Assembly (NCBI GenBank): GCA_024278135.1
Contig: JAJRTU010000352.1
Coordinates: forward strand, 1 to 34,799
Direction of reading: 5' to 3'
DNA length: 34,799 nucleotides
Source: Gammaproteobacteria bacterium
GTDB lineage: Bacteria > Pseudomonadota > Gammaproteobacteria > Eutrophobiales > Eutrophobiaceae
In this document: one piece after another, positions 26,855 through 34,799 of the stretch
Layout: each line of letters begins with the position of its first letter
Position numbering within the stretch: position 1 is the stretch's first letter
Translations under genes and position numbers: made by a program
The notes under the pieces: model-generated
Seen by the model: the letters and a program-made list of their open reading frames with translations, nothing else
What the model was told of the DNA's origin: nothing
Database searches by the model: none

Positions 26855-29284
26855 ATGAGTGCCGGCGCTCTAGCTTTCATCAATAACAACGCATTGCCCG
26901 ACAAAGTAGGCCGCTTTGAGGTCGTCCGTTGCCTGGGAAAAGGTGCTCAGGGGGTCGTGTATCTCGCCCGTGATCCGGAACTGGATCGCCAGGTTGCCAT
27001 CAAGACGCTGGACAAACGCAGACGTGATCACAGCCACCTGATCCAGGAAGCCCGCCATGTCAGCAAACTGGAACACCTGAATATCATCCCCATTTATGAG
27101 ATCGGGATACATGAGGATGCGCCGTATCTCGTCTATCAGTTCTGCGAAGGGAAATCACTGCGGGATATTCTGTCAGAGCAGGGGCGTATGAAGGCGCTGG
27201 ACGCCGTCAATATCACCCGGCAATTGCTGGACGCCATGGGCTATGCCCACCGCAGCGGCATTGTGCATCGCGATCTGAACCCGGCCAATATCATGATCGA
27301 CAGGGACAATGTGCCGCATATCATGGACTTTGGTATTTCCATCATGATCGATACGGCGACCAATACCCAGGATATCGTCGGTACGGTCAACTACATGGCA
27401 CCGGAACAGATTGCCGCCGGCGAACCGGGGCCTTCTGTCGACATATTCGCCCTCGGACTGATTCTTCATGAAATGCTGACCGCCCGGCAGGTATTCCAGG
27501 CGGACAACACGATGGCAGTGATGTTCAAGATCACCAATGAGAATATCCTGCCGCCTTCCAGCTGTGAACCCTCCGTTGAGCCAAAACTGGACGCCATCGT
27601 TATGCAGGCGCTGAAGAAAGAGGTCTCCGCACGGTTTGAAAGTGCCGTGGCCATGAAGGCGGCGCTGGATCTCTATGCGCAGCCCTCGGAAACCGACGCC
27701 ACCCCGAAGCTCAGTGGCAGTAGCAGCGGCAATCTGGGCACGGTAGATTTTCTGCTGCGACGCATGCAGCGCAAGCAGGATTTTCCGGCTATTTCGACCA
27801 ACATCACCCAGATCACGCGGCGGGCCTCAAACCATACCAATTCGTCAGTCAATGAACTGTCCAATATTATTCTGAAGGACTATGCCTTGATGACGAAGCT
27901 GCTGCGTCTGGTCAATGCGTCTTTTTACGGGCAATTCGGCGGCGAAATCACGACCATCTCCCGAGCTGTGATCATTCTCGGTTTTGAGCAGGTCCGCGCG
28001 GCGGCGTTGAGTATCATTCTGTTTGAACACCTGCAAAACAACAGTCAGTTCAAGGAACTGAAAAGTGCCGCCTGTGGCGCGCTGATGAGCGGTATCATTT
28101 CCCGGGAACAGGCCCCTCGCATGAATAATATCAATGCCGACAGCGTCGAGACAGCATTTATCGCATCAATGTTCCACAAGCTTGGCAAACATCTGACCAT
28201 CTACTACTTCCCGGAAGAGTACCAGGAAATAAAAGGACTGATAAACAACAAGGGCATGGAAGAACAACAGGCGGCACGTGCCGTCATGGGCGTTTCCTAC
28301 GATGACCTGGGCAAGGCCATCGCCAAAGAGTGGCAGTTGCCGGACGTCATTATCAACAGCATGCAACGCATGCCCGATGGTCCCGTGGCCGAGGCGAAAT
28401 CCGTGAAGGACAGCATCGCCCAACTCGCCTGTTTCTCCAATGCCCTTTGTGAAATAGGCATGAATGGCAAGGATGACAATCAGGCGGCGATGGCCGAGCT
28501 CGCTGAACGCTACGGCAAATCCATCGGCATCAAAAAGAAAGATATACAGGCCCTGATCGATTCGTCGAAAAAAGAGATGAAGGAATTTACCAGAGCTCTC
28601 AATATCGATGTCGGCGACGTCAGCCTGTTTCCCGAAGCCCGTGATCGGGCACAGGCCGGCTCCGCTTCAAACCCGGCGGCGGCAACGAGTGCGACGGTGG
28701 CAACGGACATTAGCGGCGCGGCAGACGGCGAAACACAGGCCGTAGCGGAACCGACAGCCGCCTCTGTCGGCAACAAGGATGCCCTGGTACGCGGCATCGC
28801 CGAGATCACCGATGTCATGCTGAGCGATTTCAAGCTGAATGATGTGCTCACGATGATTCTCGAAAATATTTACTCGGGTATGGGCTTTACCCGTGTATTG
28901 TTTTGTATCTACGACCGAAAGAACCGGCAGATCGTCGGTCGTTTCGGTCTCGGCAAGCACATCGACGACATCGCGTCCAGGTTCCGGGCCAGGATCGAAG
29001 CCGGTAACGATATCGTCAGCACAGCAGTCATAAAGGGTAAGGACTTCATTGTCCTTGACACAAATTCCGACGAATATCGACAGCGAATTCCCCAGTGGTT
29101 GCGTCAACTGACCGCACCGCAGACGGTTGTGGTCTACCCCCTGATACTGAACAAACGCTGCATCGGCATGATCTACGCCGACACCGACGATGCCGCCACC
29201 TCTATCTCCATGGAAGCCCTGGGTTTTTTCAAGACGCTGAGAAACCAGGCCAGCATGGCCATCCGGCAAAGCCAGATGCGTTAA
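26855..29284 (+). CDS. Ser/Thr protein kinase-HDOD-GAF fusion regulator
   Basis: The 809-aa cytoplasmic protein joins three domains. The Hanks-type kinase (about residues 21-285) is complete: GKGAQG loop 28-33, VAIK Lys50, HRDLNPAN with Asp140, DFG at 158-160 and MAPEQ. The HDOD domain (about 300-510) includes the stretch NELSNIILKDYALMTKLLRLVNASFYG and SMFHKLGKHLTIYYFPEEY. A linker rich in Ala/Ser/Thr (about 595-640) precedes a GAF domain (about 645-805) with VLFCIYDRKNRQIVGRFGLG and VVVYPLILNKRCIGMIYADT. HDOD domains are found in signalling regulators; GAF domains bind small ligands. A kinase controlled by a GAF input, with HDOD relaying output, is inferred. No substrate protein is obvious nearby. 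Confidence 0.92.
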   Translation: MSAGALAFINNNALPDKVGRFEVVRCLGKGAQGVVYLARDPELDRQVAIKTLDKRRRDHSHLIQEARHVSKLEHLNIIPIYEIGIHEDAPYLVYQFCEGKSLRDILSEQGRMKALDAVNITRQLLDAMGYAHRSGIVHRDLNPANIMIDRDNVPHIMDFGISIMIDTATNTQDIVGTVNYMAPEQIAAGEPGPSVDIFALGLILHEMLTARQVFQADNTMAVMFKITNENILPPSSCEPSVEPKLDAIVMQALKKEVSARFESAVAMKAALDLYAQPSETDATPKLSGSSSGNLGTVDFLLRRMQRKQDFPAISTNITQITRRASNHTNSSVNELSNIILKDYALMTKLLRLVNASFYGQFGGEITTISRAVIILGFEQVRAAALSIILFEHLQNNSQFKELKSAACGALMSGIISREQAPRMNNINADSVETAFIASMFHKLGKHLTIYYFPEEYQEIKGLINNKGMEEQQAARAVMGVSYDDLGKAIAKEWQLPDVIINSMQRMPDGPVAEAKSVKDSIAQLACFSNALCEIGMNGKDDNQAAMAELAERYGKSIGIKKKDIQALIDSSKKEMKEFTRALNIDVGDVSLFPEARDRAQAGSASNPAAATSATVATDISGAADGETQAVAEPTAASVGNKDALVRGIAEITDVMLSDFKLNDVLTMILENIYSGMGFTRVLFCIYDRKNRQIVGRFGLGKHIDDIASRFRARIEAGNDIVSTAVIKGKDFIVLDTNSDEYRQRIPQWLRQLTAPQTVVVYPLILNKRCIGMIYADTDDAATSISMEALGFFKTLRNQASMAIRQSQMR

Positions 29285-29353
29285 TCATCTCCGAAGAACC
29301 GGCTTCAGGCCGGTCGCCGGCAATTGATAAGCTCTGCCCGGCCCGTCTGCTGG

Positions 29354-29359
29354 TATACT
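29354..29359 (+). promoter_or_regulatory. Extended -10 promoter candidate for smpB
   Basis: TGGTATACT (29351-29359) contains a TATACT hexamer preceded by the TGn extended -10. Transcription would start around 29366, some 20 bases before the GTG start of smpB. No good -35 is present at the usual spacing. Confidence 0.45.
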
Positions 29360-29386
29360 CGCGCCCTGAATCAGGCAGAGACAAAA

Positions 29387-29860
29387 GTGGGCAAGCTCAA
29401 GAAAAAAGATCACAGCAATACCATCGTTCTGAACAAAAAAGTCCGGCACGATTACTTCATCGAAGACCGTTTTGAAGCCGGCATCGTACTGGAGGGCTGG
29501 GAGGTGAAAAGTCTGCGGGCTGGAAAAGTACAGATCAGGGACAACTACATCCTGCTGAAAGACGGTGAGGTATTCCTGCTGGGCGCGCTGATCACGCCGC
29601 TGTCCACCGCCTCCACCCATATCACCCCGGACCCGCAACGCACCCGCAAGCTGCTGCTGCACAAAAAAGAAATCGCCCGGCTCACCGGTGCCGTGGAACG
29701 CAAGGGCTATACGCTCGTGCCCACGGCCATGTACTGGAAACACGATCTTGTCAAAGTGGAGATTGCGCTGGCCAGGGGCAAACAGGCCCACGACAAACGC
29801 CAAAACCTGAAGGACCGCGACTGGCAGCGGCAGAAACAGCGCATACTGAAAAGCCGATAA
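29387..29860 (+). CDS. smpB: SsrA-binding protein SmpB
   Basis: SmpB binds the tRNA-like part of tmRNA and places it in the A site of stalled ribosomes. The conserved protein begins at a GTG (29387; [11 protein letters not shown]); the 21 residues upstream in the track ORF are not part of the family. The 157-aa length fits. Motifs: [58 protein letters not shown], then [27 protein letters not shown], the basic C-terminal tail that enters the mRNA channel. Its RNA partner, ssrA, lies 1.2 kb downstream on the same strand. Confidence 0.97.
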
Positions 29861-30025: not shown

Positions 30026-30115
30026 TTATATGGATCCGTGATCCAGAGTAATCACTTTTATTTCCGGTATTAATATAATACGACTGATTCATTTTCTGAT
30101 GGAGTGAACAAATTT

Positions 30116-30943
30116 ATGATCGAAATCAATAATATTTTTACCGTCATCGATCCGAGTACTGACAATCAATGTGCTTTGCAGCGCGCCATGCGCATTGCGA
30201 AAGTCGTCGATGCCAAAATTCATGCCTATCTTTGTATCTCTCCTTCCCTGGAAGCGCATGATCCCGAAGCACTTCGCAGGGCGGAAATGGCCCGATACAA
30301 ATCATGGTTGGAAAACATCGTTGAACAAGCCAGGGCAGAAGGCTTTGAAATCACCAGTGAACTTGTGTGGGATGCTGACTGGCGCAATACGCTGGGGGCG
30401 GCGGCGAAACGGGCCAAATGTGATTTCATTGTGAAGTCATCTCACCGAAGGTCGGCGGCACAACGCCTGATGATGACTTCTTCAGACCATGCTTTACTGG
30501 AAACGGCAAACTGCCCTGTACAACTGGTCTCATCCGAGGTTGTCGGTGACCTGTATAAGGTACTTATAGCGGTGGACACAAAAAGGGAAGATGAAAGATA
30601 TCGTGCAATTTTTGACTCTGTTGTCGCCTTTGGCAAGTTTGTGGCCGGCACACATGAGAATGGAGAGCTGCATGCCGTTTATGCTTTCTCTGACTCGGAA
30701 GATTTTGAACATGTTACCGATATCGCCAAACGAATAGATATAGACACCGATAATGTCCATGTTGTATCAGGAAATCCTGAGGAAGCCATTGCGGAAGCCG
30801 CCAGAGAAATTGATGCGCAAATACTGGTTATCGGATTGTCGACAAAAAGCACGCTGACCAACCGCATCTTCGGTCATATAGTGGATGACCTCCTCCATAT
30901 TGTCGAGAATGATGTTCTGATTGTTCTTCCGGAAAATGAGTAG
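30116..30943 (+). CDS. Tandem universal stress protein (UspE-like)
   Basis: I prefer ATG 30116 (MIEINNIFTVIDPSTDNQ), which has GGAG at suitable distance; the track GTG start at 30104 overlaps that site. The 275-aa product consists of two Usp domains: one about residues 5-140 (FTVIDPSTDNQCALQRAMRIAKVVDAKIHAYLCI; FIVKSSHRRSAAQRLMMTSSDHALLETANCPVQLV) and one about 150-272 (KVLIAVDTKREDERYRAIFDSVVAFGKF; ILVIGLSTKSTLTNRIFGHIVDDLLHIVENDVLIVLPE). Size and layout match UspE. The G-x2-G-x9-G ATP motif is degenerate. A TATAAT hexamer lies upstream (30074-30079). Confidence 0.88.
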   Translation: MIEINNIFTVIDPSTDNQCALQRAMRIAKVVDAKIHAYLCISPSLEAHDPEALRRAEMARYKSWLENIVEQARAEGFEITSELVWDADWRNTLGAAAKRAKCDFIVKSSHRRSAAQRLMMTSSDHALLETANCPVQLVSSEVVGDLYKVLIAVDTKREDERYRAIFDSVVAFGKFVAGTHENGELHAVYAFSDSEDFEHVTDIAKRIDIDTDNVHVVSGNPEEAIAEAAREIDAQILVIGLSTKSTLTNRIFGHIVDDLLHIVENDVLIVLPENE

Positions 30944-31012: not shown

Positions 31013-31148
31013 TCTTCCACCCGGATATATTTCGCTTTTAATTGTAACTGTATTTGGGGGCGTACCAGGCTTCGACGTGGGTAGCGAAACCCAAGGGGCA
31101 TGCCGAGGTGCAGATTTCCTCGTAAATCCACCTGCACTTTATATAGTT

Positions 31149-31181
31149 GCCAACGACGACAACTACGCACTCGCCGCTTAA
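31149..31181 (+). other. tmRNA proteolysis-tag reading frame
   Basis: GCC AAC GAC GAC AAC TAC GCA CTC GCC GCT TAA encodes ANDDNYALAA. With the charged alanine this gives AANDDNYALAA, differing from the E. coli tag AANDENYALAA by Asp for Glu. The ALAA end is the ClpXP/ClpAP degron. Confidence 0.95.
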
Positions 31182-31400
31182 ACCCCGGTAGGGTGCCGTC
31201 TGCCCGGTATGTGCTTATGCATCCGGTCCCAGGCGTCGACTCACATAAGCTCGCGATGATATTCGTCCGGCGTTGATTCGTTAAAACTTTACGGAATCGT
31301 TGACTGCTTTCCCTGCCGTTCGGGTAACAGTCAATTAAACTAATAGAGTCGGCTAAGCATGTAGAACCAAAGGCAGAGTACTTGCGGACGCGGGTTCGAT

Positions 31401-31672
31401 CAACAAGGGTCGCCTTTACTCGTAAGAGTAAAGTGAAAACGGGGCTCACATCGGTGAAACCTAAAGTCGAAAGACCAGGGCAATACCGAGGGGTAAGTAG
31501 AGGGCCAACCTCAGGCTTGCCCTGTAGAGACTCATAGACTCACTGACCTGTACACAGGCGAGTGAATACTAGGATTCACCTGAGAATGCTACAAGGTGAA
31601 TAACACGCCCCGCATCCTGTTATGCAGGATGAAGGTATAGTCCAGCCCGGCTCGAAAGAGCAGGATAAGCTG
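31401..31672 (+). ncRNA. Group I intron in the T-loop of tmRNA
   Basis: The boundaries follow from the only junction that rebuilds a T-arm, GCGGG-TTCGATT-CCCGC. The 5' exon ends in U and the intron ends in G (omega-G), as group I introns require. A P1 helix can form between exon GG-CGAU and intron GUCGCC (31409-31414) with a U-G pair at the splice site. P2 is CTTTACTC-GTAA-GAGTAAAG (31414-31433, GNRA loop). P4 can pair GGGCAA (31478-31483) with TTGCCC (31517-31522). The R-like element CTGTAGAGACT (31522-31532) and S-like element GGTATAGTCC (31634-31643) supply P7. There is no ORF, so no homing endonuclease. Confidence 0.87.
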
Positions 31673-31695
31673 TCCCGCCGCCTCCACCAAATTGG

Positions 31696-31752: not shown

Positions 31753-31941
31753 TTGATGCAACTGGAGGATGATCTCTGGGCCGCTACTGATAATCTGCGG
31801 GCCAATATCGATCTGGAATCCAGCGAGTACGCAACGCCGGTGCTCAGTCTCCTCTTTTTGCAGTTTGCCGATAACGAATACGGTAAGGCAGACAAAGCCA
31901 TCAATTGCGCCCCCACAAATAATGACTCTCCCGTTCAATGA
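31753..31941 (+). pseudogene. Truncated HsdM N-terminus (type I RM), plus-strand remnant
   Basis: The frame encodes MMQLEDDLWAATDNLRANIDLESSEYATPVLSLLFLQFADNEYG, which reads as the HsdM_N domain of a type I DNA methyltransferase (family pattern LE..LW.aAD.LRan..l.sseY..PVL.L.FLrfAdn.y). Family resemblance ends near 31880, after roughly 45 residues, then the frame runs into unrelated sequence and stops. The catalytic NPPY region and the rest of HsdM are absent. It starts 25 bp after the ssrA terminator and faces a second HsdM fragment on the other strand. Confidence 0.8.
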
Positions 31942-32153
31942 ACACTCGGCTCCAGCAGATCCTTAAAGCTCGCCCCTTCAGGAATCATGACAGGCGGGGT
32001 AAAGTCTCCAGAGTCGGCGTACCTGTCGGAGATATACTTGATAAACAGCATGAACAATACATAGTCCTTGTACAGGCTGGCATCCATGCCGCCACGCAGT
32101 TCGTCGCAGGAGGCCCAGAGGGAGTTGTAGAGCTCGGATTTTTTGATGGCCAT
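31935..32153 (-). pseudogene. Truncated HsdM N-terminus (type I RM), minus-strand remnant
   Basis: The minus-strand frame encodes MAIKKSELYNSLWASCDELRGGMDASLYKDYVLFMLFIKYISDRYA...IPEGASFKDLLEPSVH, the start of a different HsdM subgroup, which continues in intact proteins for several hundred residues. Here it ends after 72 codons. It points toward the plus-strand HsdM fragment, and the two ORFs overlap by 7 bp at 31935-31941. The two are not copies of each other, so two separate RM loci left their 5' ends here. Confidence 0.82.
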
Positions 32154-32288
32154 TGCTGATTATTATCGCCTTTCTGATTATCGTTCTTGTTTGTTGCCCG
32201 CCGGCAATACCTGTTGTTGCGGGATGACAATACCATTGCGCCCGCAACCGTCCCGGGTACGGATTTTCATAGCATATTATTTTCCGAT

Positions 32289-32337
32289 ATGTAACAATAT
32301 ACACTCATAAATAGAATATAAGGGTATATAGTTACAT
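32289..32337. promoter_or_regulatory. Inverted-repeat operator of the AbiE operon
   Basis: ATGTAACAATATAC (32289-32302) and GTATATAGTTACAT (32324-32337) are inverted repeats matching at 13 of 14 positions with a 21-bp spacer; the right arm covers the abiEi start codon. AbiEi antitoxins are known to bind inverted repeats upstream and repress their own operon, so this is the likely binding site. Confidence 0.7.
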
Positions 32338-32920
32338 GCCCCGGAACATCGAAAAACTGGAAAAACGACCATTCTTCACTACCGCCAAAGCGGAAAAATA
32401 TGGCATCTCCCGCCGTATGCTCAGCTATTATACCAGCGTCGGCAAATTTGAAAGAATTGCTCACGGTGTTTATTGCTCGCCAAAATATGTATCTAAAGGC
32501 GAAAACCTCAAATGGGAAGACCTGGCTATCGCTGCCAGTAACATAAAAGGTGGGGTGATCTGCCTCATTTCGGCACTAATCTATTATAAGCTCACCGATG
32601 AAATGATGAGAGAATTCTGGATCGCCGTTGCTAACGATCACTCCAGGGCCAGGTTCCCTCTAAGCCATATAGTCCGAATGCGAAACATGGATCTTGGTGT
32701 GAAGAAAATCGAGCTGGCCGGTATCAAAGTCAACATATTTGATGCAGAACGAAGCATAATCGATTCCTTTCGACTCCTTGATACTGAAACTGCCATGAAG
32801 GCCCTGAAACGTTATCTTAATGGTGAAACTGGCAAACCCAATATTAAAAAACTGGATCAATATATCACTGAACTCCGGGCATCGAAAGTTCGGGAATACA
32901 CAATGGCGCTAATCGCATGA
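32336..32920 (+). CDS. abiEi: AbiEi-family antitoxin (type IV toxin-antitoxin)
   Basis: The 194-aa protein has an N-terminal winged helix with EKLEKRPFFTTAKAEKYGISRRMLSYYTSVGKFERIAHGVYCSPKY (DNA binding, AbiEi_4-type). The C-terminal domain has the family pattern GGVICLISALIYYKLTD, FWIAVANDHSRARFP, IKVNIFDAERSIIDSFRL. AbiEi neutralises AbiEii and represses the operon. Its stop overlaps the toxin start by 4 bp (ATGA). The base composition is clearly more AT-rich than the flanking housekeeping genes, in keeping with horizontal acquisition. Confidence 0.92.
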   Translation: MPRNIEKLEKRPFFTTAKAEKYGISRRMLSYYTSVGKFERIAHGVYCSPKYVSKGENLKWEDLAIAASNIKGGVICLISALIYYKLTDEMMREFWIAVANDHSRARFPLSHIVRMRNMDLGVKKIELAGIKVNIFDAERSIIDSFRLLDTETAMKALKRYLNGETGKPNIKKLDQYITELRASKVREYTMALIA

Positions 32921-33738
32921 GTGATGCTACCGAACAGCGTGTTAAGGACACGCTCAAGAAGCTTTCAAAGGCGTCAAATACGCCGTTTAATCTGTTACTG
33001 GATACGCTTTTTCTTCAGCGCTTTCTGGTCAGAGTCGGGCAATCTGCTTATGCAGACAAACTGATCTTTAAAGGAGGTATGTGTTTGGCCCAATTCATAG
33101 AGATCGGCCGGGAAACCAGAGATATTGATTTCCTCCTGACGCGAAGCGTAGGCGGCATTGAAACCATTGAAAATATCACCGAGGAAATTGCCAGAGTAGG
33201 TGTTGGTGATAATTTCATTTTTTCTTCGGTATCAGTTGTTGAGCTTTCTCTAAGGCATAAGAAATACCCTGGGTATCGGATCACCATACAAGGTCAGCTT
33301 GGTCAAATAAGAAATAATGTCTCCATGGATATTGGCGTTGGCGATGTGGTTCGCCCAATATCATTAGAGGTCAAATTAATGAAATCCAATGATCCATTGT
33401 TTGAGGATCGCACGTACCTTCTTGCCTATCCACCGGAATACATATTTTCTGAAAAAGTCGAGGCAATTCTTTACCTTGGCAAACTCAATAGTAGAATGAA
33501 AGACTTTTATGATTGCTATCGGCTTGTCAGCGAAAACGTGCTTGATGCCACTGCTTTAAGCATGGCTGTTGCTGAAACGATGAAGAACAGAGGAACGCCA
33601 CTGGAACGCATTCCTGAACCCACAAAAGTGTTTGATGCAAGGTGGAAAGCCTTTCTCAGAAAAAACAGGATAAACGATCCGGGTCTTGGAGAAGTTGTTG
33701 CCAGGATTAATGGGGCTATTAAAGATATCGTCAAATAA
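32917..33738 (+). CDS. abiEii: AbiEii-family nucleotidyltransferase toxin
   Basis: The 273-aa protein is a MenT/AbiEii-type nucleotidyltransferase. It shows LIFKGGMCLAQF (GG motif), the catalytic RETRDIDFLLTRS (DxD within TRDIDF), a third acidic strand NVSMDIGVGD, and the late EYIFSEKVEAILYLGK motif with MKDFYDCYRL. These positions match the active enzymes, and no catalytic residue appears lost. Such toxins transfer nucleotides to target RNA (tRNA in related MenT) and cause growth arrest, giving phage abortive infection. Cotranscribed with abiEi. Length and ends suggest an intact gene. Confidence 0.92.
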   Translation: MSDATEQRVKDTLKKLSKASNTPFNLLLDTLFLQRFLVRVGQSAYADKLIFKGGMCLAQFIEIGRETRDIDFLLTRSVGGIETIENITEEIARVGVGDNFIFSSVSVVELSLRHKKYPGYRITIQGQLGQIRNNVSMDIGVGDVVRPISLEVKLMKSNDPLFEDRTYLLAYPPEYIFSEKVEAILYLGKLNSRMKDFYDCYRLVSENVLDATALSMAVAETMKNRGTPLERIPEPTKVFDARWKAFLRKNRINDPGLGEVVARINGAIKDIVK

Positions 33739-33845
33739 TGAACCTGGAAGATGCAGGAAAGACAGAATATATAGAACCTGTGATCAAAGGTCGCGATCCA
33801 AAATTTAGTGGAAATAATCGTGTGTATGAAAATATCAGTCACTAA
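33738..33845 (+). CDS. Short ORF coupled to abiEii
   Basis: A 35-codon frame starts at an ATG overlapping the abiEii stop (TAATG) and reads MNLEDAGKTEYIEPVIKGR...NRVYENISH before TAA. The one-base overlap suggests translational coupling. It is too short for the ORF track. I do not recognise it; it could be a small third component, the stump of a longer gene, or chance. The 94 bases after it contain TTGACA (33852-33857) but no good -10 for the next gene. Confidence 0.35.
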   Translation: MNLEDAGKTEYIEPVIKGRDPKFSGNNRVYENISH

Positions 33846-33939
33846 CATTCATTGACACTCACAAATGATCTGGAAACTGTATCAAGAACATAGAATATGC
33901 CCGGGATCTCTGCTCAATCGTGCTTCGGTCTAGAAGTCT

Positions 33940-34799
33940 ATGCCTCTCGACTACCAAACTCTTGAAGCGCTGAGGCAGAACCATCCCACCTGGCGCTTGC
34001 TGTCGAGTCCCCATGCCCCCTTGATGGTCAGTTTTTTTCAGAAAGTTTTTGTCGACAAAAATATTCGAATCATGCCGCAGGCGGATCTGGTGGAAGCGCT
34101 GGATGATGTGTTGTTTCATTTGCGCGAAATGCTCGGTGATGACAAATTTCCCAAATCGGCACAGGATTACCTGAATGACTGGGCGGCACCGGAAAAGGGC
34201 TGGTTGCGAAAGTTCTATCGCCAGGGTTCCGATGAGGTACAGTTCGACCTGACCCCGCACACTGAAAAGGCCATTGCCTGGCTGGAAGGACTCAGTCAGC
34301 GCAGTTTTGTCGGGACTGAGTCACGTCTGCTCATCCTGTTTGATTTGCTGCGTCAACTCAGTGAGGGCAGCGACGAAGATCCGCAAACTCGTTTGCAGGA
34401 ACTGGAAAAGCGCCGCGAGGCAATTGATATCGAAATTGCTCAGGTGCAGCAGGGCAATGTTACGCTGCTCGATGACACGGCGATAAAAGATCGCTTTATG
34501 CAATTTAATCAGCAGGCGCGTGAATTGCTCGCCGATTTTCGAGAGATCGAACACAATTTCCGTCAGCTTGATCGCAGCGCACGTGAAAGCATTGCCACAT
34601 GGGACGGTAAAAAAGGGGAATTGCTGGATGAGATTATGGGTGAGCGTGATGCTATCGCTGACTCCGATCAGGGTGCCAGCTTTCGTGCCTTCTGGGATTT
34701 TCTGATGTCACCGGCGCGGCAGGAAGAATTCAGCGAACGACTGGACAAGGTGCTGGCATTACCCGTCATAAATGAACTGAAACCGGACAAACGCACACG
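33940..34799 (+). CDS. jetA: DUF3375 protein JetA (Wadjet type I), 5' part only
   Basis: This frame is missing from the supplied track because it runs off the window without a stop. It starts at ATG 33940, with an in-frame TAG three codons upstream, and stays open for 286 codons. The sequence reads MPLDYQTLEALRQNHPTWRLL, PLMVSFFQKVFVDKNIRIMPQADLVEALDDVL, KSAQDYLNDWAAPEKGWLRKFY, FDLTPHTEKAIAWLEGLSQRSFVGTESRLLILFDLLRQL, LLDDTAIKDRF and ELLDEIMGERDAIADSDQGASFRAFWDFLMSP. This is the DUF3375 pattern of JetA, the kleisin-like subunit (MksF/EptA) of type I Wadjet complexes. These use JetABC as an SMC motor and JetD as nuclease to cut plasmid DNA. The usual length is about 480-500 aa, so roughly 60 percent is visible. 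jetB, jetC and jetD are expected downstream. Confidence 0.88.
   Translation, partial: MPLDYQTLEALRQNHPTWRLLSSPHAPLMVSFFQKVFVDKNIRIMPQADLVEALDDVLFHLREMLGDDKFPKSAQDYLNDWAAPEKGWLRKFYRQGSDEVQFDLTPHTEKAIAWLEGLSQRSFVGTESRLLILFDLLRQLSEGSDEDPQTRLQELEKRREAIDIEIAQVQQGNVTLLDDTAIKDRFMQFNQQARELLADFREIEHNFRQLDRSARESIATWDGKKGELLDEIMGERDAIADSDQGASFRAFWDFLMSPARQEEFSERLDKVLALPVINELKPDKRT

Follow-up and report, generated by a model that had tools for sequence, protein, structure and literature searches.

Type I Wadjet systems are built around a dimer-of-dimers DNA motor that consists of the kleisin JetA, the KITE subunit JetB and the MukB-like SMC ATPase JetC, two of these motors being joined via the N-terminus of the kleisin (PMC10586767). 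The fourth component, JetD, is a Toprim nuclease which cuts small circular DNA that is thought to be fully extruded by the motor first (PMC10586767). A homologous MukF-like kleisin is also found in the MksBEF condensins (PMC10586767), which lack JetD.

The window analysed here, a stretch of 34,799 nucleotides, represents the entire contig C303 of the draft genome G000 (3.74 Mb, 360 contigs, 88% complete, 5.6% contamination), and position 34799 is therefore a true contig end. The last gene on this contig (33940..34799, + strand) comprises the 5' part of jetA. Its frame starts with an ATG at 33940 and extends over 286 codons to 34797 without a stop before the end of the window, which corresponds to the front 58% of the gene. 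A minus-strand ORF (33859-34260) overlapping this frame was rejected as a shadow ORF. The preliminary description had noticed the plus-strand frame, which was missing from its ORF list, and had assigned it to DUF3375 and to JetA. Both assignments were confirmed by the reading of the frame, by profile searches and by matches to solved structures. The proposed comparison of the 286 visible residues with the Pfam DUF3375 profile (PF11855) gave a clear match of 360 bits (E 2.9e-107, profile positions 2-274 of 474), and the PADLOC JetA1 model PDLC00457 was matched with 460 bits (E 2e-138, positions 1-283 of 480), the type I JetA model being the best PADLOC match of the jetA product. Moreover, the solved JetA chains 8dk1, 8q72, 8as8 and 9qxt were matched (best: 8dk1, E 1.7e-26), with residues 10-278 aligning with residues 32-295, i.e. 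the N-terminal part, of a solved JetA of 517 residues. The type I Wadjet systems of 8dk1 and 8as8 thus resemble the jetA product in their best-scoring profile and its close relatives in the joint occurrence of A, B, C and D; they differ in that only the first 286 residues and no other jet genes are visible here, and the phmmer scores to the solved JetA (80-97 bits) indicate a distant relationship.

The complete JetA of a related locus (L010) shares 83% identity with the jetA product over residues 1-286. Since the alignment with the relatives, which are up to 83% identical, begins at residue 1, the start codon is correct. The differences between jetA and its L010 homologue are distributed over the codon positions as 43/22/146 (pN 0.10, pS 0.78), and the comparison with four relatives revealed a pN of 0.10-0.15 and a pS of 0.70-0.82 with differences mostly at third codon positions. 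This pattern and the low pN point to protein-coding constraint rather than to a frame that is open by chance, and judging from these substitution patterns the jetA frame is under strong purifying selection. The jetA promoter presumably lies in the low-GC gap (39%, 201 bp) between abiEii and jetA (33739..33939, + strand).

At L010 jetA is followed by genes encoding JetB (DUF4194), JetC (AAA_29 and SbcC_Walker_B) and JetD (DUF3322 and JetD_C), and each of the four proteins, JetA included, was assigned to a PADLOC type I model. To assess the gene set in relatives we turned to the closest homologues from other species and retained those loci, 60 in total, where the sequence continues for at least 7 kb past the start of jetA. 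A full operon, defined as near full-length jetA, jetC and jetD together with jetB, all on the same strand, was present at 54 of these loci, and the other six fell short of it. The jetB gene was seen in 68 of the 73 homologous loci with enough DNA to show it. Given that 54 of 60 loci are complete, jetABCD is the expected, if unproven, continuation past the contig end. On the basis of these comparisons the jetA fragment very probably represents the front of an ordinary type I Wadjet operon with jetB, jetC and jetD located most likely directly past the contig end (probability roughly 0.87). Longer gaps between the jet genes occur in some relatives (L016, L033, L069), but it seems improbable that the hidden part departs from plain jetABCD in a comparable way, for example by an extra gene between the jet genes.

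The gene might also encode the MksF subunit of a JetD-less MksBEF condensin, which would imply a function in chromosome organisation instead of plasmid defence. MksF is a kleisin homologous to JetA, and MksBEF probably arose from JetABCD (PMC10586767). However, the type I JetA model scores best and jetD is present in almost every close relative whose locus extends far enough, so that an MksF is scarcely to be expected here.

The L010 JetA has 492 residues, from which it follows that about 206 codons of jetA are absent from the window. Searching all 360 contigs of the draft genome with JetA, JetB, JetC and JetD of L010 recovered only the JetA fragment itself; the tail of jetA was not found on any other contig, and the last 300 bases of C303 matched nothing else in the assembly. 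No jetB (DUF4194) was detected elsewhere in the draft genome with a JetB query that was used without a positive control. The draft genome likewise yielded no JetC SMC ATPase with a query that recovers JetC from 9 of the 13 genomes searched, at identities as low as 26%, and no JetD (DUF3322, JetD_C/DUF2220) with a query that was positive in 6/6 other genomes. The JetC and JetD searches can therefore be considered functional, as both queries find their targets in relatives. Since jetB, jetC and jetD are absent from the assembly, they are either located on sequence outside the bin or do not exist.

The latter would apply if jetA were a remnant, either because the operon is truncated or because B, C and D were lost in this strain, as happened to the type I restriction-modification genes nearby. 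Two N-terminal HsdM remnants (31765-32154), encoded on opposite strands and pointing towards each other, separate the tmRNA gene from the abiE genes. The plus-strand remnant (31765..31941) was detected by PF12161 (E 5.8e-6), and the minus-strand one (31950..32154, MAIKKSELYNSLWASCDELRGGMDASLYKDYVLFMLFIKYISDRYAD...) was read by eye only, in line with the restriction-modification scars that had been proposed near jetA. These scraps lie near jetA and indicate that decay occurs at this spot, jetBCD are missing from the assembly, incomplete Wadjet copies exist among the relatives (e.g. L086, L019), and six of the 60 loci fall short of a full operon. On the other hand, the visible frame of jetA is intact and strongly constrained and 54 of the 60 relatives are complete. 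A missing contig would furthermore be the simpler cause of the absence of jetBCD, since the contig ends inside jetA and the bin is 88% complete and split into 360 contigs. It therefore seems unlikely that jetA is a remnant, and an operon cut by the contig end is favoured.

The AbiE pair which the preliminary description had placed upstream of jetA was likewise recovered. The genes abiEi (32336..32920, + strand; antitoxin/regulator, PF13338) and abiEii (32917..33738, + strand; nucleotidyltransferase toxin, PF08843) both score over the cut-off, and abiEii begins with an ATG that overlaps the abiEi stop codon, which is the expected arrangement of an AbiEi followed by an overlapping AbiEii. The pair stands outside the Wadjet system. 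Proximity of AbiE and jetA was observed at only 2 of 80 related loci and hence does not indicate a functional link; a recurrent AbiE-Wadjet pairing was rejected on the same count. A plasmid origin of the jetA copy was also considered and rejected: homologues occur in nine plasmid records (best identity 66%), and nothing suggested that the copy in the window resides on a plasmid.

Upstream of these genes the contig carries smpB (29324-29860), a gene for a universal stress protein (30104-30943) and the tmRNA gene, and the same order is found in the same-genus genome G002. The three genes are 81%, 67% and 92% identical to their G002 counterparts, which argues against a chimeric or misbinned contig whose part past the tmRNA gene, and jetA with it, would stem from another organism. 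The bin contamination of 5.6% and the fact that the closest JetA sequences come from genomes without demonstrated membership in the same family would fit such an artefact, which we nevertheless consider highly improbable. Next to smpB lies a gene (26855-29284, + strand) whose 809-aa product combines Ser/Thr kinase, HDOD and GAF domains; this gene is missing at the corresponding spot in G002, and a 52% identical relative adjoins smpB in G010.

The tmRNA gene (ssrA; 31065..31689, + strand) is interrupted in the T-loop by an insert of 272 nt (31401-31672), its 5' part ending with U31400 and its 3' part resuming with U31673. Group I introns are preceded by a U and end with a G (PMC11915505), and the ends of the insert follow these rules. 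It matched Intron_gpI (RF00028) with 44.3 bits (E 7.1e-10), which is under the gathering score of 50, and ARAGORN missed the interrupted tmRNA gene. Inserts at the same tmRNA site were found in G019 and G006 of the same family, but not in the same-genus G002. The G019 insert matches Intron_gpI (E 2.9e-8); that of G006 does not, yet it is similar in sequence to the insert in the window. Since group I introns located in the T-loop of tmRNA genes have been published (883 unique sequences from 21 phyla; PMC11915505), the intron-bearing tmRNA gene is a rare, already described gene form. In G019 a 147-codon LAGLIDADG ORF (L133:4199-4642, + strand; PF00961 and PF14528) starts about 50 bases past the 3' end of the tmRNA gene. 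This ORF lies downstream and outside of the intron, unlike the endonuclease genes that have been described for tmRNA introns, which are located within them, and it possibly encodes a free-standing or displaced homing endonuclease.

The tmRNA gene marks the conserved left border of a variable region. Past it, G002 harbours ABC transporter genes and ubiD, whereas the window contains the two hsdM remnants, the AbiE pair and jetA. Taking into account this difference in gene content and the fact that tmRNA genes are frequent integration sites of islands (PMC11915505), a variable defence-gene region after ssrA appears plausible. The G002 DNA after the tmRNA gene matches the draft genome only in ubiD, on contig C32, and therefore no right border could be placed. 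Furthermore, the 3.1 kb that the contig still covers past the tmRNA gene showed no integrase. The defence island proposed in the preliminary description is thus moderately supported overall: the presence of hsdM remnants, AbiE and jetA where G002 carries other genes speaks for it, and the lack of an integrase and the AbiE-Wadjet proximity at only 2 of 80 loci speak against it. The proposal that JetA starts a jetABCD operon held with respect to JetA, and its position as first gene is strongly supported by the relatives (54/60); jetB, jetC and jetD were not found in the draft assembly.

The presence of these three genes in this genome, like the activity of the system, is inferred. If the operon is complete, small circular DNA would be fully extruded by the JetA-JetB-JetC motor before being cut by JetD, so that incoming plasmids below roughly 50-100 kb would be lost. 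The jetA product would serve as the kleisin subunit, its visible part being the N-terminal one, and it is through the kleisin N-terminus that two motors are joined in type I Wadjet. In contrast to MksBEF, relatives of this JetA possess JetD.

Genes cut by a contig end are dropped from ORF lists that require a stop codon, and the jetA fragment illustrates this annotation trap. The jetA gene of C303 is an ordinary, further example of a known Wadjet type and leaves the general knowledge of Wadjet unchanged. No DUF3375 gene was detected in the two other genomes of the genus examined, both of which are drafts; with the window, this genus gains one type I Wadjet system, which is partial yet probably intact.
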